Assembly (NCBI GenBank): GCA_016207765.1
Contig: JACQOY010000045.1
Span: forward strand, 1-10,376
Source: Deltaproteobacteria bacterium
Lineage (GTDB): Bacteria; UBA10199; SBBF01
DNA: 10,376 nt
Direction of reading: 5' to 3'
Shown: positions 1 through 10,376 of the stretch, in pieces
Layout of the letters: each line of letters begins with the position of its first letter
Numbering within the stretch: position 1 is the stretch's first letter
Notes under the pieces: generated by a model
Database searches by the model: none
Told to the model about the DNA's origin: nothing
What the model saw: only the letters and a program-made list of their open reading frames with translations
Made by a program: the position numbers and the translations under genes

Positions 1-1
1 A

Positions 2-89
2 TGTAGGGGCAACCCCCTGTGGCCGTTAAACGGCCCCTCTTTATGGGGTTGCCCTGCAAGGAGGGCGGCCACAGGGGGTTGCCCCTACA
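2..89. repeat. Long inverted repeat, GTAGGGGC-type palindromic element
   Basis: The bases at 2-25 are the exact reverse complement of those at 66-89, a 24-bp perfect stem beginning TGTAGGGGCAACC and closing GGTTGCCCCTACA. The 40-base middle part can form a smaller hairpin (CCCC at 34-37 with GGGG at 45-48). Elements with GTAGGGGC/GCCCCTAC termini are, from general knowledge, dispersed non-autonomous repeats in many environmental bacterial genomes; mobility is inferred here. It ends 7 bases before the probable start codon of the SPOR gene, so it forms most of that gene's visible 5' region. A related but diverged palindrome lies inside carA at 8151-8202. Confidence 0.85.
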
Positions 90-96
90 AGATGAT

Positions 97-774
97 ATGA
101 AATTCACCATCGGTCAAATCACCTTTTTTGTTCTTTGCCTCCTTATTGCCGGTTTTCTTGATTTCTATCTCGGGGCCCGCTTCGGGCCGGAGTTGTTTTG
201 GGGCATTCGCCTCGATCAGCTCGGCCGTCAATCGCTTCTGCCGGAAGAAACCTCCAACGCCGAACTCGAGGCGCTTCTGGCCGAGGAGGCCGAAAAGACC
301 ACCTTTCATGAAGTTCTGGAAAACAACGCCCCCACAGTTCAGGTTGCCGAACTGAAAGAAACCGTTCCCTTGGAAGTTCCTCCAAACATGATTGTCGATT
401 CCATTCCAACCATTCCCGAAAAATCATTGAAAAAGGAGGAGGCGAAAAAACCGGAAGAAAAGAAAGTGGCGGAGGTTGCAACACCGCCCGAACCGACTCC
501 GGACCCCATTGCCCAGGTTGTTGCCGAGGAGGTCCCTGTTTATCGTTATACCCTTCAAGTTGGTTCATTTTCCGACTCAGAACAGGCCAAAGGGGTGAAA
601 AAGGCTTTCATCTCAAGGGGCTACTCTTCATTCATCAAAGAAGTTTCCATTCCTGGAAAAGGGAAGTGGTACCGCGTCCATGTCGGCAAGTTTTCCTCCT
701 TCGATGCGGCCTTAAAGAACCAAAGTCAAATTAATCTGAACTATAAAATCATGCCGCTGATCGTGAAATTGTAG
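97..774 (+). CDS. Membrane-anchored SPOR-domain protein
   Basis: This 225-residue protein has a short N-terminus followed by one hydrophobic segment (about residues 8-26), so it is probably anchored in the inner membrane with its bulk in the periplasm. The middle (about 45-148) is low complexity, rich in Glu, Lys and Pro, as expected of a periplasmic spacer. The C-terminus (about 149-225) is a SPOR domain: it opens YTLQVGSFSD, contains WYRVHVGKF and closes with a hydrophobic strand. SPOR domains bind denuded septal peptidoglycan, so a role in division or wall processing is likely, though no specific family member (FtsN, DedD) can be named. The frame is open from a GTG at 19, but that start lies inside the palindromic repeat; ATG 97 puts the membrane segment at the N-terminus and is preferred. 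No clear Shine-Dalgarno sequence precedes it. Confidence 0.85.
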   Translation: MKFTIGQITFFVLCLLIAGFLDFYLGARFGPELFWGIRLDQLGRQSLLPEETSNAELEALLAEEAEKTTFHEVLENNAPTVQVAELKETVPLEVPPNMIVDSIPTIPEKSLKKEEAKKPEEKKVAEVATPPEPTPDPIAQVVAEEVPVYRYTLQVGSFSDSEQAKGVKKAFISRGYSSFIKEVSIPGKGKWYRVHVGKFSSFDAALKNQSQINLNYKIMPLIVKL

Positions 775-800
775 GATCGGGGTTCGGGTTCCGCAGAGAA

Positions 801-839
801 ATTATTGCCCTTGATTTCTGCTTACCGCTAAGCAATAAT
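801..839 (+). promoter_or_regulatory. Putative sigma70-type promoter overlapped by inverted repeats
   Basis: TTGATT (811-816) and AATAAT (834-839) are separated by exactly 17 bases, matching the -35 (TTGACA) and -10 (TATAAT) consensus at 4/6 and 5/6. Initiation would fall about 7 bases on, at 846-847, which is the first base of the next gene, so the transcript may be leaderless. Two symmetric sequences overlap the promoter: ATTATTGC 801-808 with GCAATAAT 832-839, and GCTTA 820-824 with TAAGC 829-833. Such symmetry fits an operator for an autoregulated module. The promoter and operator assignments are inferences from sequence alone. Confidence 0.45.
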
Positions 840-846
840 AGGCACC

Positions 847-1104
847 ATGAAGATGAGTGAACTGGCCAAAAAATTGGGGCGCCGGGGCGGCTTGGCCCGC
901 GGACGGCGTTTATCTCCCCGGCGGAGGAAAGAAATCGCCTCGCTGGGGGGGCGGGCGAAGGCGCTGTCGCGTCATGCCTTCCGCCGCATCCGGAGAAACT
1001 TTTATGGCTGGGAAGCGGTGAAAACCTTAAGGAAGCCACCGTGGGTCCGATCATTATCCACGGCCAAAGGACCACTCCCAGGAATCTATGCCCGGCACAA
1101 TTGA
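847..1104 (+). CDS. Small basic Gly/Arg-rich protein paired with a nucleotidyltransferase
   Basis: This is an 85-residue, strongly basic protein with no membrane segment. The N-terminal half carries two related Gly-Gly/Arg motifs, LGRRGGLARGRRLS (about 10-23) and ASLGGRAKALS (about 31-41), then a helix-like stretch (HAFRRIRRNFYGWEAVKTLR). It ends GPLPGIYARHN. I believe similar small proteins occur directly upstream of AbiEii-like nucleotidyltransferases in other genomes, but I cannot name a family with certainty. The gene overlaps the nucleotidyltransferase by 17 bases, so the two are surely co-transcribed and probably translationally coupled. A regulator or antitoxin role is plausible from position, size and basic charge. 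The start at ATG 847 has no Shine-Dalgarno sequence and fits the leaderless promoter; an in-frame ATG at 853 is an alternative. Confidence 0.7.
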   Translation: MKMSELAKKLGRRGGLARGRRLSPRRRKEIASLGGRAKALSRHAFRRIRRNFYGWEAVKTLRKPPWVRSLSTAKGPLPGIYARHN

Positions 1105-1615
1105 CTACCTTGAAACCGTCCTTGATGTTTCGGAGGACCTGGAAAAGAGAGGCATGACGCCGGTTTTAATCGGCGGGATGGCCCTGGTGATTTTGGGGTC
1201 AGACCGGATCACCAATGATTTTGATTTTCTCATCTCCGCGCCAGAGACGGTTCTCGCCGAGATAGTGGAAGTTTTTTATGCCCACGGATTCGAACTGGTC
1301 TCGAAATTGAAGGAGGGCAAGGTAACGCGGACTATCGACAACAAAAATATAGCGGTTGTTAGGCTGAAACTCGATGCGCCGCAGAGTGCCTACTTTTATC
1401 ATCCAAAGAAGGAGCTCCGGATTGATCTCCTATTCGATTTTCCTTTTCCAGCCAAGGAAGTCGCTGGGAGGGCAACAAAGACTAAAATCAAATCCCGTTT
1501 CCTTCGAGTTGCCTCCACGGAAGATCTCATCCGTTTAAAAGAAATCGCCTACAAAGACCGCAAAGCCGCCACCGATGCCCAGGATTTGGAATTTCTTCGC
1601 AAAAAACTTGGGTGA
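1088..1615 (+). CDS. Nucleotidyltransferase-fold protein (AbiEii/MNT-like)
   Basis: This 175-residue protein has the signature of the minimal nucleotidyltransferase fold: an IGGMALVILG loop (28-37) followed by RITNDFDFLI, giving the metal-binding Asp pair D44 and D46, with a third acidic residue likely at D113 in RIDLLFD. The C-terminal helix, EDLIRLKEIAYKDRKAATDAQDLEFL, has the spacing of charged residues common in AbiEii/AbiGii-type proteins. Family members transfer nucleotides to tRNA or proteins and often act as toxins or abortive-infection effectors; the substrate here is unknown. AGGA at 1080-1083 lies 4 bases before the ATG, a usable ribosome-binding site. The gene overlaps its upstream partner by 17 bases and nearly abuts the ribbon-helix-helix gene. 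All recognisable catalytic positions are intact, so the gene appears functional. Confidence 0.8.
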   Translation: MPGTIDYLETVLDVSEDLEKRGMTPVLIGGMALVILGSDRITNDFDFLISAPETVLAEIVEVFYAHGFELVSKLKEGKVTRTIDNKNIAVVRLKLDAPQSAYFYHPKKELRIDLLFDFPFPAKEVAGRATKTKIKSRFLRVASTEDLIRLKEIAYKDRKAATDAQDLEFLRKKLG

Positions 1616-1633
1616 AAATTGGAGAGAGGACAA

Positions 1634-1664
1634 TTGACAATATATATATAGTCATATATCGTCA
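1634..1664 (+). promoter_or_regulatory. Palindromic promoter/operator of the ribbon-helix-helix gene
   Basis: A perfect -35 hexamer TTGACA lies at 1634-1639; the -10 is less clear (TATATC 1655-1660 with a 15-base spacer). The 20 bases 1635-1654, TGACAATATATATATAGTCA, are self-complementary except for one mismatched pair, and a further GTCA at 1661-1664 repeats the half site 10 bases (one helical turn) after GTCA at 1651-1654. Ribbon-helix-helix dimers commonly bind short half sites spaced by about a helical turn at their own promoters, so autoregulation is inferred. The transcript would begin only a few bases before ATG 1672. Confidence 0.5.
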
Positions 1665-1671
1665 CTCCGAT

Positions 1672-1860
1672 ATGGCCAGAAAAAAGATATCGACAACTGT
1701 TTATATTACCGAAGAGCAGAACGAGTTGCTCAAACAGCTCAACGAAAAAACGAGGGTCCCGATTGCGGAGTTTATTCGGCAGGGAATTGACATGGTGCTT
1801 CATAAGTACAAAAAAGATCTCCCGGGACAACTGACTCTTCTCGACGCCGCCAACGAATAG
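1672..1860 (+). CDS. Ribbon-helix-helix DNA-binding protein
   Basis: This 62-residue protein begins MARKKISTTVYITEEQ, a polar beta strand followed by helix A (EEQNELLKQLNEKT), a VPIAEF turn and helix B (IRQGIDMVLHKY), which is the ribbon-helix-helix (Arc/MetJ/CopG-like) DNA-binding fold. The strand residues that would enter the DNA major groove are in KISTTVYI. Proteins of this type are repressors or antitoxins acting as dimers. The frame is open back to a GTG at 1612 that overlaps the preceding stop as GTGA, but the extra 20 residues look like translated promoter sequence, and MARKK is the usual family start; ATG 1672 is therefore chosen. No Shine-Dalgarno sequence is visible. It lies 15 bases before lepA and next to the nucleotidyltransferase, so it may regulate that module. 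Confidence 0.85.
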   Translation: MARKKISTTVYITEEQNELLKQLNEKTRVPIAEFIRQGIDMVLHKYKKDLPGQLTLLDAANE

Positions 1861-1875
1861 AAATCGCCTTTCCCC

Positions 1876-3681
1876 ATGACTGAAATCCCCTTCGAGCGGC
1901 GACGCAACTTCTGCATCATCGCCCACATCGACCACGGCAAATCGACCCTTGCCGACCGGATTATCGAAATGACCGGGGGGTTGTCCTCGCGCGAAATGCG
2001 CGAACAGGTGCTCGATGCCATGGATCTGGAGCGCGAGCGGGGAATTACAATAAAAGCCCACAGCGTTCGACTCGTCTACAAGGCCAAAGATGGCCTCGAA
2101 TACGAATTCAACCTTATCGATACCCCAGGCCATGTCGATTTTCATTACGAAGTTTCGCGGAGCTTATCGGCCTGCGAGGGGGCCATTCTCGTGGTCGACG
2201 CCTCGCAAGGGGTTCAGGCGCAAACGCTCGCCAATGTTTACATGGCGCTCGATCACAATCTCGAAATCCTTCCCGTCCTCAACAAGATCGATCTCCCCAA
2301 CGCCGACCCCGACCGGATCAAAGAGCAGGTGGAACAGATTATCGGCATCGACACCAGCCAGGCCCTTTGCGTGAGCGCGAAAACGGGATTGGGGGTGGAT
2401 AAAATCCTGGAGGCCATTGTGCATCGCCTGCCGGCCCCCCGCGGCTCGGAGGATGAACCGCTTCAGGCCCTCATTTTCGACAGCTGGTTTGACACCTACC
2501 AGGGGGCGGTAATCCTGGTGCGGGTGATCAACGGGCGGATGAATGTGGGCCAGAAAATCTCCCTTATGCATACAGGCAAAACCTACGAAATATTGAAACT
2601 GGGTTTTTTTACTCCGCGGCCGGTTATCTGCGAAACGTTGGTGGCCGGCGAAGTGGGATTCGTGATTGCCGGAATCCGCGAGGTACGGGAGACGAAAATC
2701 GGCGACACCGTTACGGATGCGGCAAACCCCTGCAAGGAAGCGTTGTCCGGTTTTCGCGAGGTGAAGCCGATGGTCTTTGCCGGAATTTATCCCATCCAGC
2801 CCAACGAATACGAAAATCTTAAACTGGCGCTTGAAAAATTGCGCCTAAACGACAGCGCTTTCAGCTTTGAGCCCGAAACCTCGGTGGCGCTTGGCTTTGG
2901 ATTCCGGTGCGGTTTTCTGGGCCTGCTTCACATGGAAATCGTCCAGGAGCGGCTGGAACGCGAGTACAATCTGGAGCTGATTACCACCAGTCCAACCGTT
3001 ATCTACAAGGTTCATCTCACCAACGGTGAGGTTCTGGAAATCGATAACCCGTCAAAAATGCCGCCGGAGGGGACTATCGATCATCTCGAAGAGCCGTTCA
3101 TCGATGTGACCATCCATGTCCCCAGCGAATACGTGGGGAATGTCATTCAGCTTTGCGAGGAAAGACGGGGCATTCAGAAAAAGATCAATTATGTCACGCC
3201 GGACCGGGTGATGGTTCATTACGAACTGCCGTTTCCCGAAATCATGTTTGATTTCTATGACAAACTCAAGTCGCTCACGAGGGGCTATGCCTCACTGGAC
3301 TATGAGGTTCTCGATTTCCGGGCCTCCCGGCTGGTGAAGCTCAACATCCTGGTCAACGGTGATCCGGTCGATGCGCTTTCCGTTATCGTGCACCGGGATC
3401 ATGCCCAATATCGCGGCCGGGAACTGGTTTCCAAATTGCGGGAAATCATCCCCCGACAGCAATACGAGGTGGCGCTCCAGGCGGCCATCGGTTCCAAGGT
3501 GGTAGCCCGCGAAAATGTCAAGGCCCTAAGAAAGGATGTCATCGCCAAATGCTACGGCGGCGACATCACCCGCAAACGCAAGTTGCTGGAAAAGCAAAAA
3601 GAGGGTAAAAAGAGGATGAAACAGGTGGGACGCGTGGAAATTCCGCAGGAGGCGTTTCTCGCGGTGCTGAAGATTGATTAA
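1876..3681 (+). CDS. lepA: Elongation factor 4 (LepA), ribosomal back-translocase
   Basis: This is a full-length 601-residue translational GTPase of the LepA/EF4 family, which binds the ribosome and is thought to reverse faulty translocation or assist 30S biogenesis. All G motifs are present: AHIDHGKST (16-24), switch I RGITIK (55-60), DTPGH (82-86), NKID (136-139) and SAK (167-169). EF-G-like domains II, III and V follow, then the LepA-specific C-terminal domain with [14 protein letters not shown]-type sequence (here [14 protein letters not shown]), the [36 protein letters not shown] basic stretch given only by its ends here (NVKALRK...KKRMK), and the terminal [12 protein letters not shown]. 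No residue of note is missing. The start at ATG 1876 lacks a Shine-Dalgarno sequence. lepB follows after 2 bases, the common lepA-lepB operon arrangement. No separate promoter is evident in the 15-base gap upstream. Confidence 0.98.
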
Positions 3682-3683
3682 TA

Positions 3684-4499
3684 ATGTCGAACGAAAATTT
3701 ACATAACGGCCTCGAACGACTGAATCAGGATGTTGTTGCCGAGCCGCCCAGGAAAAAGAAGGGGGTTGTCCGGGAATATGTCGAAGCCCTTCTGGTTGCG
3801 GTGGTGTTGGCCTTTTTTATCCGTTCGTTTATTGTCGAGCCGTTCAAAATCCCCTCCAAATCGATGGTTCCCACCCTGTTGGTGGGGGACCATATTTTTG
3901 TCAACAAATTCATCTACGGCCTCCGCATCCCCGGCACCAAAAAATGGTTTCTCCAATTTGGCGAACCCAAACGGGGCGATGTGATTGTTTTTATTTATCC
4001 CGAAGATGAAAAGCTCGATTTCATCAAGCGGGTTGTGGGCGTTCCGGGGGATCATGTCCAGATGAAAGATGATAAATTCTATGTGAACGATGTGGAGGTG
4101 ATGGAAGAGGAAATCCCTGTTGTTGGCGTCGATCCGAAGGACAAACGCCGCCTCCTGGTTTCCGAGGCGGAGGCCGTGGAAAAAATACCCCCTCCCTTTC
4201 GAAGAATTCCCTTTTACCGGGGGTTTGAGAATTACAAAATCCAGATGGAAAATCTGACCGGCTACAACCACATGATTCAGCGGAGCCGGATGCTCCCCAA
4301 CAACGAGGAAATCGACCTTGTGGTGCCGCCTGACAACTTTTATGTTATGGGAGACAACCGGGACCAGAGCGCCGATTCCCGCGTGTGGGGTTTTGTCCCC
4401 CGGAAGAATCTCAAGGGGAAGGCGCTCTTTATCTGGCTCTCGCTCGATTCCGACCGCGGCGGCATCCGGTTGAAGCGGTTTGGGAAGAAGATTATCTAA
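3684..4499 (+). CDS. lepB: Signal peptidase I
   Basis: This 271-residue membrane protease removes signal peptides from exported proteins on the outer face of the inner membrane. After a basic N-terminus there is one hydrophobic segment (about 33-50, ALLVAVVLAFFIRSFIV), then the catalytic domain. Conserved boxes are in order: PSKSMVPTL with nucleophile Ser60, GDHIFVNKF, RGDVIVF, FIKRVVGVPGD with general base Lys115, and GDNRDQSADSRVWGFV near the end. The Ser/Lys dyad is intact. About 60 residues between the two last boxes form the variable insertion seen in Gram-negative enzymes (VEVMEEEIPVV to about NNEEID). It sits 2 bases after lepA, so the pair is co-transcribed. No Shine-Dalgarno sequence is visible before ATG 3684, suggesting translational coupling to lepA. 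Confidence 0.97.
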   Translation: MSNENLHNGLERLNQDVVAEPPRKKKGVVREYVEALLVAVVLAFFIRSFIVEPFKIPSKSMVPTLLVGDHIFVNKFIYGLRIPGTKKWFLQFGEPKRGDVIVFIYPEDEKLDFIKRVVGVPGDHVQMKDDKFYVNDVEVMEEEIPVVGVDPKDKRRLLVSEAEAVEKIPPPFRRIPFYRGFENYKIQMENLTGYNHMIQRSRMLPNNEEIDLVVPPDNFYVMGDNRDQSADSRVWGFVPRKNLKGKALFIWLSLDSDRGGIRLKRFGKKII

Positions 4500-4514
4500 G
4501 GCGGCAGGGCCGCC
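4500..4514 (+). other. GC-rich hairpin just after lepB
   Basis: GGCGGC (4500-4505) and GCCGCC (4509-4514) form a perfect 6-bp stem with a 3-base loop directly after the lepB stop codon. There is no following T-run, so it is not a standard intrinsic terminator; it could stabilise the mRNA 3' end or be a fragment of a repeat. Confidence 0.35.
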
Positions 4515-4613
4515 GGCCAAATATTGAGGATGTGACTTCAAATCGTCCGCAAGCTTCTGTGTAAAATAAAAAGAAGTTGCCTGAGAAGAATCCAAAAAAT
4601 CCAAAAAACCGCA

Positions 4614-4641
4614 TTGACTTCCGCCCCGAAACCCTGATAGG
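4614..4641 (+). promoter_or_regulatory. Putative promoter of the pyr operon
   Basis: TTGACT (4614-4619) matches the -35 consensus at 5/6. The best -10 candidate is GATAGG (4636-4641) after a 16-base spacer, a weak match. Upstream lies an A-rich tandem repeat, TCCAAAAAA twice at 4591-4608, which could serve as an UP element. Initiation near 4648 would give a leader of about 100 bases before pyrR, enough for the leader ORF and terminator described next. The rest of 4515-4613 shows no gene. Confidence 0.4.
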
Positions 4642-4675
4642 ACATCACAAAATTTACGATGAATTCAGGAAACAA

Positions 4676-4735
4676 ATGGGGAAATTAAAGGGCTTTATAC
4701 GGTCGGTCCAGACAACCTCCCAGCGGAGACGCTAG
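4676..4735 (+). CDS. Candidate pyr leader peptide, 19 codons
   Basis: A short ORF with an ATG at 4676 encodes MGKLKGFIRSVQTTSQRRR and stops at TAG 4733-4735. AGGA at 4667-4670 lies 5 bases upstream, a better ribosome-binding site than those of most genes in this window. Its last codons and stop lie within the terminator hairpin (4714-4742), so a ribosome finishing the peptide would block that hairpin. This resembles the logic of the enterobacterial pyrBI leader, where translation close behind RNA polymerase prevents termination. Three consecutive Arg codons just before the stop are notable because carbamoyl phosphate also feeds arginine synthesis. Function is inferred; a short chance ORF is possible. 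Confidence 0.4.
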   Translation: MGKLKGFIRSVQTTSQRRR

Positions 4736-4749
4736 GGAGGTTTTTTTTT
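4714..4749 (+). terminator. Intrinsic terminator/attenuator overlapping the pyrR ribosome-binding site
   Basis: AACCTCCCAGCG (4714-4725) pairs with 4730-4742 (CGCTAGGGAGGTT), giving 12 base pairs with one bulged A (4734) and a GAGA tetraloop (4726-4729), followed by the T-run to 4749. This is a textbook intrinsic terminator placed immediately before the pyrR ATG at 4750, as expected of an attenuator controlling the pyr operon. The 3' arm contains AGGGAGG (4734-4740), which is also the only Shine-Dalgarno sequence for pyrR, 9 bases from its ATG. Formation of the hairpin would therefore both end transcription and hide the ribosome-binding site. I could not find a convincing antiterminator by eye. 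Confidence 0.9.
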
Positions 4750-5271
4750 ATGAAGACTATCCTCGATTCAACAGACATGCAGATGGCCATCGATAAAATG
4801 GCCAAGGAAATTGTGGAAGAGGCGGGGAGTCTTGACTCTCTGGTGCTTGTGGGCATTCGCACACGGGGGGTCCCCTTGGCTCAGCGGATTGCCGGCCGAA
4901 TCAGGGAGTCGAAAAAGAAAGAGGTCCCGGTAGGCACCCTCGACATCAACCTCTACCGCGACGATTTATCAAGGCTCGATTACCACCCCATCATCGGCAA
5001 AACCGAAATCCCCTGCCCGGTCGATGAAAAAACGGTTTTCCTGGTGGACGATGTTCTCTACACCGGGCGGACCATCCGGTGTGCCATGGATGCCCTTTTC
5101 GATCTGGGGCGCCCCGATTCGATCAAACTGGCGGTGCTGGTGGACCGCGAGGGACGTGAGCTTCCCATTCAGGGGGATGTTGTCGGCATTCACCATCCCG
5201 CGGGGCGGGGTGAAAATGTGAAGGTGAATCTTGCCGAGACCGACGAAAAAGACGAAGTCATTGTGGAGTGA
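4750..5271 (+). CDS. pyrR: PyrR, pyr operon regulator / uracil phosphoribosyltransferase
   Basis: This 173-residue protein is the type I phosphoribosyltransferase PyrR, which binds pyr leader RNA when UMP or UTP is high and may also make UMP from uracil and PRPP. The PRPP-binding motif is clear ([15 protein letters not shown], 96-110), as are the substrate loop [10 protein letters not shown] (35-44), the family sequence [11 protein letters not shown] (64-74) and [10 protein letters not shown] (131-140). Length is normal for the family. The start at ATG 4750 is set by AGGGAGG 9 bases upstream. It is the first gene of the operon, directly behind the terminator hairpin, and its stop overlaps the pyrB region (GTGA at 5268-5271), so it probably controls its own expression and that of the downstream genes by attenuation or by blocking translation. 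Confidence 0.96.
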
Positions 5272-5273
5272 GG

Positions 5274-6209
5274 ATGCAACTGGCACGCAAAGACCTGCTG
5301 GGGATTGAAAGCTTAAGCAAAAAAGAAATCGAATTAATTCTCGAGACGGCGAAGACCTTTCAGGAAATATCAACCCGCGAAGTCAAAAAAGTCCCCACCC
5401 TCCGGGGTAAAACGGTCATCAATCTCTTTTTCGAGGATTCCACCCGGACCCGGACCTCGTTTGAAATCGCCGGTAAGCGGCTTTCCGCGGATGTCATCAA
5501 TATTTCGCAGAAAGGCTCATCCGTCGCCAAGGGGGAAACGCTTCTCGATACCGCGAAGAACATCGAGGCGATGGGGCCCGATTTGATCGTCTGCCGGCAT
5601 TGGGCGGCGGGGGTTCCCCACTTCCTCGCTTCGAGGCTCAAGGCCTCGATCATCAACGCCGGGGACGGCGCGCACGAGCATCCGACGCAGGCGCTTCTCG
5701 ATCTCATGACCATTCGCGAGGCGAAGGGGAAAATTGCGGGCCTCAATGTGAGTATTGTCGGCGACATCTCCCACAGCCGTGTTGCCCGGTCGAATATTCA
5801 TGCCTTGAATAAAATGGGGGCCCGGGTGACGGTGGCCGGGCCCGCGACAATGATCCCGGCGGAAATAGAAAAAATGGGGGTCAAGGTGTCAACCGATTTG
5901 AGGAAGGGGATCGCCTCCGCCGATGTGATCATGATGCTCCGCATCCAGCGTGAACGGCTGACGATGTCGCCATTTCCGACCCTGCGCGAATATTCTCAAC
6001 TCTACGGTTTGAACAAGGAAGCGCTCAAGGGGGCCAAGCCGGATGTGGTGATCATGCATCCGGGGCCTGTCAATCGCGGCGTGGAAATCGACCCCGAGGT
6101 GGCCGACGGCCCTTATTCGCTGATTCTCGATCAGGTGACAAACGGTGTGGCCATCCGCATGGCAGTGCTTTATCTTTTGTCGGGACCGAAAGGAAAAGCG
6201 GCTTTATGA
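5274..6209 (+). CDS. pyrB: Aspartate carbamoyltransferase, catalytic chain
   Basis: This protein of 311 residues joins carbamoyl phosphate and aspartate to form N-carbamoyl-aspartate, the committed step of pyrimidine synthesis. The carbamoyl-phosphate loop STRTRTSFE (56-64) and the AKGET loop (about 85-89) contributed by the neighbouring subunit are present, as are [10 protein letters not shown] (135-144), [12 protein letters not shown] in the aspartate domain, and the C-terminal [10 protein letters not shown]. No pyrI regulatory chain is seen, so it is likely a catalytic trimer or a dihydroorotase-associated form. An in-frame GTG at 5268 overlaps the pyrR stop; ATG 5274 is preferred because GGAG (5265-5268) lies 5 bases upstream of it. 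The stop overlaps the pyrC start as ATGA. Confidence 0.97.
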
Positions 6210-7528
6210 GGCTCATCATCAAAAACGGACATCTCATCGACCCCAAAAACCGGCGCAATGGCCGGTTCGATCTGCTCATCGAAGAGGGAAAGGTGCGCGA
6301 TATTCTAAAAGCGGGACACACGGTTGCGTCTGCCGATGTGATCGACGCCAAAGGGTGCATTGTCAGCCCCGGTTTTATCGACCTCCATGTCCATCTGCGC
6401 GAGCCGGGGTACGAATATAAGGAAACGATCCGGAGCGGAACACTGGCCGCGGCGGCGGGGGGATTTACCTCGGTCTGTTGCATGGCCAACACCAATCCGG
6501 TCAACGACAACGCCTCCATCACCGAATATATCCTCAAAAAGGCGAAAGAAGAGGGAACGGTGAATGTGTTTCCCATCGGCGCCTTGTCGAGGGGGCTTGC
6601 GGGGAAAGAATTGAGCCCCATGGGGGAGCTTAAAAAAGCGGGGTGCGTGGGGTTCTCCGACGACGGCAAAACGGTTCAAAACAGCCGCCTCATGCGTTTG
6701 GCCCTGGAATACGCCAAAACCTTTGATGCGCCGGTTATCAGCCACGCTATCTGCTCCGATTTGGCCCACGGCGGGGTCATGCACGAGGGTTTTGTCGCAA
6801 CAAAGCTGGGGCTTCCCGGAATTCCCTCGGCCGCTGAAGATATCATCATCAGCCGCGATATCCGTTTGGCGGAAACAACCGGCGCCCGCCTCCATATTGC
6901 CCATCTTTCCACGGCAGAGGGGGTGGAACTGGTGCAGAAGGCCAAAAAGAAGGGGATCAGGGTTACCGCCGAGGCGACTCCGCACCATTTTACTTTGACC
7001 GACGAGACGGTGGAGGCGCACCCTCCGGGTACTGCGGCCAAGCCGTCCCAGGATGGGGCTTCGCCGTACGACACCAACACAAAAATAATGCCGCCCCTTC
7101 GTTCCGAAAAAGATCGGAGGGCGATTGTCGAAGGGCTTGCCACGGGGGTTATTGATGCGATTGCCACCGATCATGCCCCCCATGCGCTTGTGGACAAAGA
7201 GATTGAATTTGATTCGGCCGCTTTTGGAATAGTGGGGTTGGAGACAGCCTTAAGTTTGTCCCTCCAACTGGTTGAAAAGAAAAAATTAACGATGAAAAAA
7301 ATGGTGGAGCTGTTGACGATCAATCCGGCGCGTATTGTCGGCCTGAAAAAAGGGGGCCTTGAACCCGGGGCCTCCGCCGATGTCGTAATTTTTAATCCCT
7401 CCCTTTCCTGCAAAATCGATCCGGCCAAATTTTATTCCAAGAGCAAAAACACCCCGTTTGGCGGGATGAAGGTGAAGGGGGTTGTAAAGTATACGATTGT
7501 CGGGGGAAAAGTTATTTATCAGGTTTGA
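6206..7528 (+). CDS. pyrC: Dihydroorotase, class I
   Basis: This 440-residue metal-dependent amidohydrolase cyclises carbamoyl-aspartate to dihydroorotate. Metal and catalytic residues are visible: HVHLREPG with H61 and H63, Asp153 in SDDGK (bridging the metals in class I enzymes), H180 in ISHAI, H233 in IAHLS, and TDHAPH with D322. The MANTNPV substrate motif is at 93-99. The protein is about 15 residues longer than usual; the excess is an insertion at about 271-287 ([17 protein letters not shown]), between the [15 protein letters not shown] stretch and the conserved [12 protein letters not shown]. The DNA of that insertion is an imperfect palindrome. The ATG overlaps the pyrB stop (ATGA), indicating coupled translation. 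The insertion lies in a loop and no key residue is lost, so activity is probably kept. Confidence 0.96.
7029..7069. repeat. Possible palindromic insertion within pyrC
   Basis: CGGCCAAGCC (7035-7044) and GGCTTCGCCG (7057-7066) form a 10-bp stem with one mismatch, inside a segment that begins and ends GTAC (7029-7032, 7066-7069). It encodes the extra residues of PyrC (about 275-288) that other class I dihydroorotases lack, to my knowledge. Its end, CGCCGTAC, resembles the CGCCCGTAC end of the carA palindrome, but I cannot show that they are the same family. Confidence 0.35.
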
Positions 7529-7597
7529 AAAGTTCAAGGTTATAACAGTTCAAGGACTGACTTTAAAAACTTTTAACTTTTCGAACCTTGAACTTTT
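7528..7597. repeat. Inverted and direct repeats between pyrC and carA
   Basis: AAAAGTTCAAGGTT (7528-7541) is the exact reverse complement of AACCTTGAACTTTT (7584-7597). AGTTCAAGG occurs directly repeated at 7531-7539 and 7547-7555, and AACTTTT recurs on the right side. This fills nearly the whole gap between pyrC and carA. No T-run follows the hairpin, so it is not an intrinsic terminator. Similar GTTCAAG-family intergenic repeats are, as I recall, common in deltaproteobacterial genomes. The role is unknown; carA has no visible Shine-Dalgarno sequence beyond it. Confidence 0.7.
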
Positions 7598-7607
7598 GAA
7601 ACATTAA

Positions 7608-8567
7608 GTGAATTTGAAACCAGCCCACCTCATTTTGTCCGACGGAAAAATTTTCTCCGGAACGTCGTTTGGTGATGAAGGCGCCCGATGGGGTGAGGTC
7701 GTTTTCAATACGTCACTCACCGGCTATCAGGAAATCCTGACCGATCCATCGTATCAGGGCCAAATCGTCGTCATGACCTATCCCGAAGTCGGGAACACCG
7801 GCGCCAATCCGGTCGATGTCGAGTCGGCCAAAATTTATCTTTCGGGATTCGTCGTGAAAGAAAATTCCCCCATTGTGAGCAACTTTCGGGCGAAGTCATC
7901 TCTCTCCGCTTTTTTGAAGAAGAATAAAGTCCCGGCTGTCGAGGGAATTGACACGCGCGCATTGGTGAGGCACATCCGCGATGCCGGGGCAAAACCGGCG
8001 CTTATTCATGTCGGTGTGGTCACGGATTTTTCGAAACTGAAGAAAAAGGCGGCCGCCCTTCCTTCCATGGAGGGACAGGATTTGGCAAAAGTGGTTTCAT
8101 GCAAGAAGCCGTATGGGTGGAACAGGGGGAGTCACAGGATTGTGCGCATGGTAGGGGCGCAGGGCCACGAAGTGGTCCCTCCTAGGGGCCGTGCGCCCGT
8201 ACAAAAAAAGAAATTCAACGTCATCGCTTATGATTTCGGTATCAAACAGAATATTCTCCGGATGTTAGTCGATGCCGGATGCCGGGTGAAAGTGGTTCCG
8301 GCCGATTATCCCGCCGAAGAGGTTTTGGGCCAAAACCCGGACGGCGTCTTTCTCTCCAACGGTCCCGGCGATCCGGCGGTTTGTACCTATGCCGTCGAGA
8401 ATGTCCGGAAAATTTTGGGGAAAAAACCGATGTTCGGCATCTGTCTGGGCCATCAAATCATGGGATTGGCCCTTGGGGGGAAGACCTTCAAGCTGAAATT
8501 CGGCCATCACGGGGGAAACCAGCCGGTGATGGACTTATCCACGCAAAAAGTGGAGATCACCGCGCAA
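7608..8567 (+). pseudogene. carA: CarA portion: carbamoyl-phosphate synthetase small (glutaminase) subunit, C-terminally truncated
   Basis: CarA releases ammonia from glutamine for the large subunit CarB, supplying carbamoyl phosphate to PyrB and to arginine synthesis. Residues 1 to about 170 are the N-terminal small-chain domain ([22 protein letters not shown], split here as [11 protein letters not shown] and [24 protein letters not shown]). The class I glutamine amidotransferase domain starts near [16 protein letters not shown] and includes SNGPGDP and FGICLGHQ with nucleophile Cys279. Homology ends at KVEITAQ (residue 320); the following QNHGF region and the true C-terminal catalytic His-Pro-Glu segment are absent, although an HPE occurs by position 321-323 right after the break. 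About residues 182-198 are a palindromic-repeat insertion between the two domains. It is the expected next gene of the pyr operon, 79 bases after pyrC; carB would normally follow but is not seen. Confidence 0.9.
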
Positions 8568-10376
8568 CACCCCGAGCCCGCGCGTGTCGCGCCGGCATCT
8601 GCCGCGCAACAGCTCCAGCCGGCGCCGCCGGCCGTTCAGGTGGAAGCGGCCCAGACGATCCGGGTTGAGATATCCAAGCTGGACAGCGTGATGAACCTGC
8701 TGGGCGAGCTGGCCACGGCGAAGATCCGGTTCGATCAACGGATACAGGAGATTTCGGGTCTTCACGACGAAGTCAACCGGCTGAACGCGTCGCTCCGCCG
8801 CGGCGTCGACCTGAAATCATTCGCGTCCGAATTGGGATTGGTCGACACCGCGTTCAAGGACAACCTGGAAGAGCAGAGGCGGGCGTCGGACGAAGTCCGT
8901 CGGATTTCCGGGGAACTGCAGGAAGCCGTCATGCGCACCCGCATGATCCCGGTCGGGACCGTCCTCAAAAAATTCCCCCGAATGGTCCGGGACATTGCCA
9001 GGGACACGAACAAAAAAGTGAAATTGACGATCCTCGGCGAAGACACCGAGATGGACAAGACCGTGGTGGAGAGCATCGGCGATCCGCTGATGCATCTGAT
9101 CCGAAACGCCATCGACCATGGAGTCGAGCCGCCGGCCGCCCGCCTGCAGGCGGGCAAACCGGAGGAAGGGCAGGTCGTCATCCGCGCCGGCCACCAGGGG
9201 GACATGGTCGTCATCTCGATCGGCGACGACGGCGCGGGACTTCGGAGAGACAAAATACTGAACAAGGCGATCGAGCGCGGACTGGTGGCGGCGGAGGCCG
9301 CGCCCGGTCTGTCTTCGGCCGCCGTCTGCGACCTGATTTTCCGGCCCGGATTTTCAACGGCGGAAAAAGTGACGGACCTCTCCGGCCGCGGAGTCGGAAT
9401 GGACGTGGTCCGGAGCCAGATCAGCAAGCTCAAGGGAACGGTGGACGTGCAGAGCGTTGAGGGCAAGGGATCCACGTTTACCATCAAGCTTCCCCTGACC
9501 CTGGCCATCATTCAGGTGCTGATGGTGACCGTGGGCCAGCGCCGGTACGCCTTGCCGCTGACCGCCGTCCAGGAAACCCTCAGCGTCCCCAACTCGGACA
9601 TCCACGCCATCGGGCTCAAACAGGTATTCAATCTCCGCGGCGAAGCAGTGTCCCTCGTGCGTCTGGCGGACATGCTCGGGCTGAAAAGCATGGCCTGGAC
9701 CACCGGCGAAGAATCCAAAGTCGTCGTGGTCAATGTGGGCCAGGACAAGGTTGGATTGCAGGTCGACGTATTGATGGACATGCGGGAAGTCGTGATCAAG
9801 ACGCTGGGCACCGTTTTGAAGCACGTCAAGTTCGCGACAGGCACGACGATCATGGGAGACGGCAGTTTGGTGTTGATTCTGGATCTGCCGGAACTGGCGC
9901 GGGAAACCAAAAATCTCGAAACGACGGGAATGGCCGGCCGGAAGGCGGAGGAACCCATTGTTTCGGACGCCAAACCGGCGGCGCAAACCAGCCCGGCCGC
10001 GCCCGACTATCGCGCGACCCTGCTCCTCGTTGACGATTCACCAACGGTGATCCGCCTGGTGGCGCCGGCCGTTCAGCGGCACGGGTTCCGGGTGCTGACC
10101 GCGTCGGACGGCGTGGAAGCGCTGGAAGTACTCGGCCGGGAAAAGGTGGACGCGGTGGCTACGGATGTATCGATGCCGAGGCTCGACGGATACGGAGTCT
10201 GCCGGGAAATCCGCAAACGACCGGCATTTCAGAGCATGCCGGTCATCCTGTTCTCATCCAAGGGAGACAAGCTGGACAAGGTGCGCGGTTTCGACGTGGG
10301 CGCGGACGAATATATCGAGAAGCCGTTAGATCCGGCCGTGCTGGTCGCCAAACTCGAGCAACTGCTCCGGAGGACG
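7608..10376 (+). CDS. Chimeric ORF: truncated CarA joined in frame to CheA-CheW-receiver kinase (3' end outside window)
   Basis: One open frame of 923 codons runs from GTG 7608 (directly after an in-frame TAA; TTG 7614 is an alternative start) to the last base of the window with no stop. Residues 1-320 are carbamoyl-phosphate synthetase small subunit, ending at ITAQ where CarA should continue NHGF. An Ala/Pro/Gln-rich linker (about 321-349) leads into a CheA-type kinase core and a receiver domain. The fusion lacks the last 50 or so residues of CarA and the Hpt and P2 domains of CheA, so neither half has its complete active machinery. I know of no natural CarA-CheA protein. A contig misjoin or recent deletion is the likeliest cause; retention of frame would occur by chance one time in three. 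The two halves are described separately below. Confidence 0.8.
8151..8202. repeat. Palindromic element inserted in frame within carA
   Basis: GTAGGGGCGCAGGGCC (8151-8166) pairs with GGCCGTGCGCCCGTAC (8187-8202) at 14 of 16 positions, and the interior holds a second hairpin, GGGCCAC (8162-8168) with GTGGTCC (8172-8178) around a GAA loop. The terminus matches the first bases of the element at 2-89. The frame reads through it as about 17 codons without a stop (from [11 protein letters not shown] to RGRAPV), adding residues between the N-terminal and amidotransferase domains where other CarA proteins have a short linker. In-frame palindromic insertions in genes are known from Rickettsia palindromic elements; this one is a separate family as far as can be seen. 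Confidence 0.7.
8565..8580. other. Break point between carA and cheA homology
   Basis: CarA similarity stops after the CAA codon at 8565-8567 (Gln320 of ITAQ) and the next codons read HPEPARVAP, the start of an Ala/Pro-rich linker typical of CheA. Downstream codons favour G or C in third position more: in one hand count of 30 codons, 19 were G/C within carA (7788 onward) and 25 within the kinase part (from the GACGTG at about 9443). Samples are small, but the change in style is also visible in the loss of long G and A runs. Confidence 0.65.
8568..10376 (+). other. CheA-type histidine kinase core with CheW-like and receiver domains (partial at both ends)
   Basis: Residues below count from GTG 7608. 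From about 350 ([19 protein letters not shown]) comes the CheA dimerisation domain, with a longer than usual coiled-coil hairpin (about 370-440). The ATPase domain follows with N box [12 protein letters not shown] (496-507, Asn500), G1 box DDGAGL (540-545), the [15 protein letters not shown] region and G2 box GRGVGM (593-598). A CheW-like coupling domain begins near 610 ([16 protein letters not shown]) and runs to about 765. After a linker, a receiver domain starts near 803 with acidic pair D809/D810, phosphoacceptor D853 and Lys905; its end or further domains lie beyond the window. The Hpt domain with the phosphorylatable His and the P2 domain are missing upstream. The architecture is that of a hybrid CheA/receiver kinase as in FrzE-like or Chp-like chemosensory systems. 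Confidence 0.9.

Follow-up and report, generated by a model that had tools for sequence, protein, structure and literature searches.

The question raised by this locus is whether a single open reading frame, which begins as the small subunit of carbamoyl-phosphate synthase (CarA) and continues as a CheA-type kinase with CheW and receiver domains, encodes a genuine fusion protein or joins two pieces of DNA that do not belong together. The window, i.e., the whole stretch of 10,376 nucleotides that was analysed, is the entire contig C226 of a 1.89-Mb draft genome (256 contigs, 84% complete, 1.1% contamination), which we infer from its fragmentation to be a metagenome assembly. The gene order before position 7608 is lepA, lepB, pyrR, pyrB, pyrC, with names assigned from the translations, and pyrB and pyrC, the neighbours of the truncated carA, are full-length open reading frames. 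The frame under study (7608..10376, forward strand) has a GTG start and runs over 923 amino acids to the end of the contig without a stop codon.

At its other end the window starts with a long palindrome (positions 1-95) with a fold energy of -72.5 kcal/mol, copies of which lie close to the termini of other contigs (L182, 19-109; L156, 43-85; L180, 9988-10039 of 10093). It is likely that palindromes of this type caused contig breaks in this assembly.

Two truncated partners in one open reading frame

The closest CarA found for the first part of the frame (Table 1) is that of a genome of the same family (G001), which shows 81% identity, is intact and reads ..VEITAQNHGFAVD... This protein runs ..ITAQNHGFAVD.., and the window departs from CarA after ITAQ, the final CarA-like codon being that of Q320 (8565-8567), so that the end of homology at ITAQ, for which the earlier note had given a position of about 8567, is located exactly there. 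The match to TIGR01368 covers positions 1-295 of 361 only. The absent tail corresponds to 67 residues in G001 and includes the YHPEAS segment, the His and Glu of which we take to be catalytic in class-I amidotransferases. GICLGHQ is present in the CarA part of the window, and the combination of Cys and His-Pro-Glu segment that marks a full class-I glutamine amidotransferase (GATase) is not found, since the tail is gone. The CarA part shows 81% and 75% identity to the genomes of the same family, 73% and 67% to two genomes of the same order and 64% and 54% to other members of the order, and in one further genome of the order (G004) a CarA match was not found.

Table 1. Features of the open reading frame and of its junction (positions in the window).
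Feature	Position	Strand	Basis and remarks
carA 5' part (carbamoyl-phosphate synthase small subunit)	7608..8567	+	residues 1-320; cut inside the GATase domain
CPSase small chain domain, complete	7629..8006	+	PF00988 1-126/126, residues 8-133, E 6.9e-50
In-frame palindromic repeat, CarA interdomain linker	8151..8202	+	own-genome copies
Class-I glutamine amidotransferase (GATase) domain, partial	8229..8552	+	PF00117, residues 208-315, profile 3-116 of 190
Junction: CarA homology ends, foreign composition begins	8567..8568	.	alignment and composition
Pro/Ala/Gln-rich linker	8568..8651	+	probably on the CheA side, judged by composition
CheA dimerisation domain (H-kinase_dim)	8652..8936	+	PF02895, residues 349-443
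CheA ATPase domain (HATPase_c)	9084..9500	+	PF02518, residues 493-631
CheW-like domain	9513..9905	+	Pfam, residues 636-766; sole CheW match in the readable genome
Receiver domain (Response_reg)	10023..10355	+	Pfam, residues 806-916; near the contig end, no stop before 10376

The second part of the frame contains the dimerisation, ATPase and CheW domains by which a CheA is recognised (Pfam), and the matches to the ATPase, CheW and receiver profiles are almost full-length. An Hpt (P1) domain with the phosphorylated histidine was not found in the frame by Pfam; it is present at the N-terminus of three CheA-receiver proteins from the same class, and in the window its place before the linker is taken by CarA sequence. 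The description given in the earlier note, i.e., one uninterrupted frame in which a CarA lacking its C-terminal part is followed by a CheA-CheW-receiver core lacking Hpt, therefore holds in each of its parts.

Ancestry and composition on the two sides of the junction

The G+C content is 0.533 in the carA part and 0.626 in positions 8568-10376, and GC3 rises from 0.631 to 0.794, which bears out the shift in third-position composition noticed earlier. As a reference, 48 readable stretches of this genome were cut into 187 chunks of 1809 bases, which have a G+C content of 0.526±0.020 with a maximum of 0.586; the tetranucleotide divergence is 0.149 for positions 8568-10376 compared with 0.044±0.013 for these chunks (maximum 0.129). 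The CheA half is compositionally foreign, and horizontal transfer fits this composition equally well. In codon choice, measured as mean log codon probability with a table trained on the genes of the contig, the CheA part (-1.064) falls within the range of these genes (-0.949 to -1.093). Ancestry and composition thus switch at a single point, 1.8 kb before this short contig ends, and the codon-choice measure does not split the halves.

At the join itself, the only hint of an overlap is CGCGCAACA, which is found at 8561 and is repeated at 8603; an overlap of k-mer length explaining the join was not seen, and the ends of the contigs compared had no k-mers (21 to 127) in common other than runs of N. 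A deletion scar within carA was considered and rejected. HPEP, following ITAQ, resembles YHPEAS, but the residues after it mismatch, and CACCCCGAG, common to the window and the carA tail of G001, is a 9-base match in about 100 x 220 comparisons, which by our own estimate is near chance.

The relatives show how the locus is normally continued and whether the fusion has a precedent. Both genomes of the same family (G001 and G002) encode an intact CarA with carB as the next gene, and of 29 CarA loci, the best of the relatives found (25 from the same class and four more distant), 26 have a carB motif at most about 1.3 kb behind carA. None of these 29 loci carries a CarA fused to a CheA core; their open frames of 375-543 amino acids are too short to hold CarA together with a CheA core of the window's type. 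Moreover, a search of eight genomes of the order with the whole 923-residue query at 1e-30 gave no match to both halves except the window itself. From the other side, 91 loci were fetched for CheA/receiver similarity, of which 90 contain open reading frames of at least 300 amino acids and 62 a CheA frame at 1e-30, and none of the 589 open reading frames from these 90 loci matches CarA. The search for a CarA-CheA fusion proposed in the earlier note hence returned none in the relatives examined, among which no genome of the same genus is represented, and none of the papers listed from the open-licence literature in PubMed Central dealt with such a fusion.

The ancestry of the CheA half differs from that of the CarA part. 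In the genomes of the same family its best match is to the receiver only (E 2.3e-22 and 6.9e-19), and a match at 1e-60 was not found there. Such a match is present in seven of 46 genomes of the phylum, the window's own included, the six others showing 34-46% identity. In a tree of the CheA part with 61 rows (the window and 60 of the 62 relatives, two short alignments having been dropped) the window has no supported neighbour and a best identity of 44%. The best relative overall reaches about 46% identity over part of the length; no donor above 46% identity was found among the best 80 loci of a genome-contig scan and the 46 genomes of the phylum, and megablast gave no match among plasmids.

The missing halves and possible partners were also sought in the window's own genome (G000), in which contigs shorter than 3 kb are all N (6 of the 40 contigs fetched), so that absences in it are weaker than they appear. 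In the readable contigs of this 84%-complete draft the CarA tail was not found, the best match (31%) lying in an open reading frame read as TrpG beside trpE; likewise carB was not found (best match 24% identity, E 3.1e-8), nor was a contig on which carA continues natively. A second CheW domain and an MCP signalling domain were not found in these readable contigs either. Because contigs shorter than 3 kb are N and the genome is 84% complete, the absences of the carA tail, carB, CheW and MCP are only suggestive. Of the partner halves for which the earlier note had proposed to look, the carA 3' end and carB were thus sought directly, and the cheA 5' end only by way of CheW and the CheA part.

In-frame palindromic repeats in the CarA linker

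The CarA part carries a palindromic repeat in its interdomain linker (8151-8202), with at least 15 further matches at 13 places in the same genome, at 79-90% identity among the best 40 of 66 candidates. The genome also has a copy in murF (L003, 1288-2694), an open reading frame called by its Mur ligase domains, where the element is translated in the same frame as in carA. There it occupies residues ~72-89 and falls within the first domain match (26-107) instead of a linker. Different palindromic inserts are found in the CarA linkers of several genera of the same class (L010, L011, L018, L020, L024, L028, L029 and L030), and the two of them that were searched, those of L010 and L020, each give many additional matches within their own genome. 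For the insert in the CarA linker of G001, 11 matches were found in that genome, with the insert itself and second strands counted, and none in G000 or G002. The insert of G018 has at least 40 matches in G018, at least 35 in G001 and at least six in G033 (second strands counted), and among the matches listed for G033 none lies at its CarA linker.

In a block test on 30 CarA genes, which was designed after the sequences had been seen and used 25 mononucleotide shuffles per test segment, hairpins with z<=-4 were found in 9/30 linker blocks compared with 7/281 other blocks (Mann-Whitney p 4e-4), and in a 16-gene subset in 7/16 linker blocks compared with 3/147 others. The eight linkers with z<=-4 besides that of the window are all from the same class. 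A first, cruder test was weak: the strongest hairpin of a gene was in the linker in 4/16 genes, and the window gene, with a linker z of -2.4, was not among them. In this phylum, in-frame palindromic repeats from several unrelated families appear to be tolerated in the CarA interdomain linker. The repeats in the CarA linker and in murF lie in frame within genes, as do the Rickettsia palindromic elements, which are in-frame insertions in genes according to a review (PMC10969869). None of the papers listed from the open-licence literature in PubMed Central dealt with repeats in the carA linker.

Origin of the join and comparison with known systems

Both partners are truncated, the second half is foreign, and the relatives examined have no such fusion. 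A single event accounts for all observations: very probably, the contig is chimeric, with the start of carA from one organism joined to the second half of cheA from another, unrelated one. Bases 1-8567 would be a genuine lepA-lepB-pyrR-pyrB-pyrC-carA region, the native continuation of which most likely is the carA tail and carB, and bases 8568-10376 would come from the interior of another organism's hybrid CheA gene (of the Hpt-dimerisation-ATPase-CheW-receiver type). The two pieces may have been joined by the assembler or via a chimeric DNA template, i.e., the join would stem from library making or assembly and not from the cell, and the fused protein would not exist. Full-length pyrB and pyrC beside a tailless carA would hardly be expected of a living cell and become sensible if the contig strayed after carA. 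The reading frame would have been preserved by chance; since about 1/6 of random joins of coding stretches keep orientation and frame (two orientations times three frames), the in-frame continuation is a weak argument for a fusion.

The same foreign composition is equally compatible with horizontal transfer, and a real rearrangement in the organism or in a minority strain, in which foreign CheA-bearing DNA was illegitimately recombined into carA and broke both genes, is an unlikely alternative to the chimeric contig. It would leave a dead or partial protein. The open frame across the join agrees with it, and the short repeat at 8561 and 8603 could be microhomology. Against it, carA would be broken while the adjoining pyrB and pyrC are full-length, so that the cell would need to lose carA function; a Pfam scan, confined to the 7608..10376 frame, found no transposase or integrase domain, and the carA tail and carB were not found elsewhere in the readable contigs.

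Much less probable is a working fusion, in which the join is real, a CheA-type kinase uses the CarA fragment as its input module, and an Hpt protein is needed in trans. The single open frame and the profile matches of ATPase, CheW and receiver, which extend almost end-to-end, would be expected of such a protein. However, the GATase domain breaks off midway, a second CheW and an MCP were not found in the readable genome, and neither the 29 CarA loci nor the 589 open reading frames from the CheA/receiver loci offer a counterpart; a functional fusion requires several additional improbabilities. Least probable of all is a deletion in one genome joining native carA to native cheA, with which the truncation of the facing sides of both partners agrees, and which is disfavoured because the CheA half is foreign and the same-family genomes have no match to it beyond the receiver. 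The earlier note had considered a true fusion less likely than an assembly chimera or a deletion; the evidence supports this ranking and, between the latter two, favours the chimera of two organisms.

If the contig is such a chimera, the record is best divided at 8567/8568 and its two parts handled separately, the CheA piece being unfit for inferring chemotaxis in this lineage. The case illustrates that an open frame with good domain scores would put a false 'new fusion' into protein databases.

Compared with known systems, residues 1-320 resemble CarA (TIGR01368; PF00988 and PF00117), with a complete CPSase_sm_chain domain and a GATase domain up to ITAQ, but the final stretch including YHPEAS and a downstream carB are lacking. 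The remainder has its four domains in the same order as the last four of the hybrid CheA proteins with a C-terminal receiver of G010, G005 and G011, to which it aligns through the receiver with 32-35% identity, and differs from them in lacking Hpt. As a whole, the window resembles the chimeric contigs that are described as a failure of metagenome assembly (PMC7299287), in that it likewise switches ancestry and composition abruptly in the middle of a gene near the contig end.
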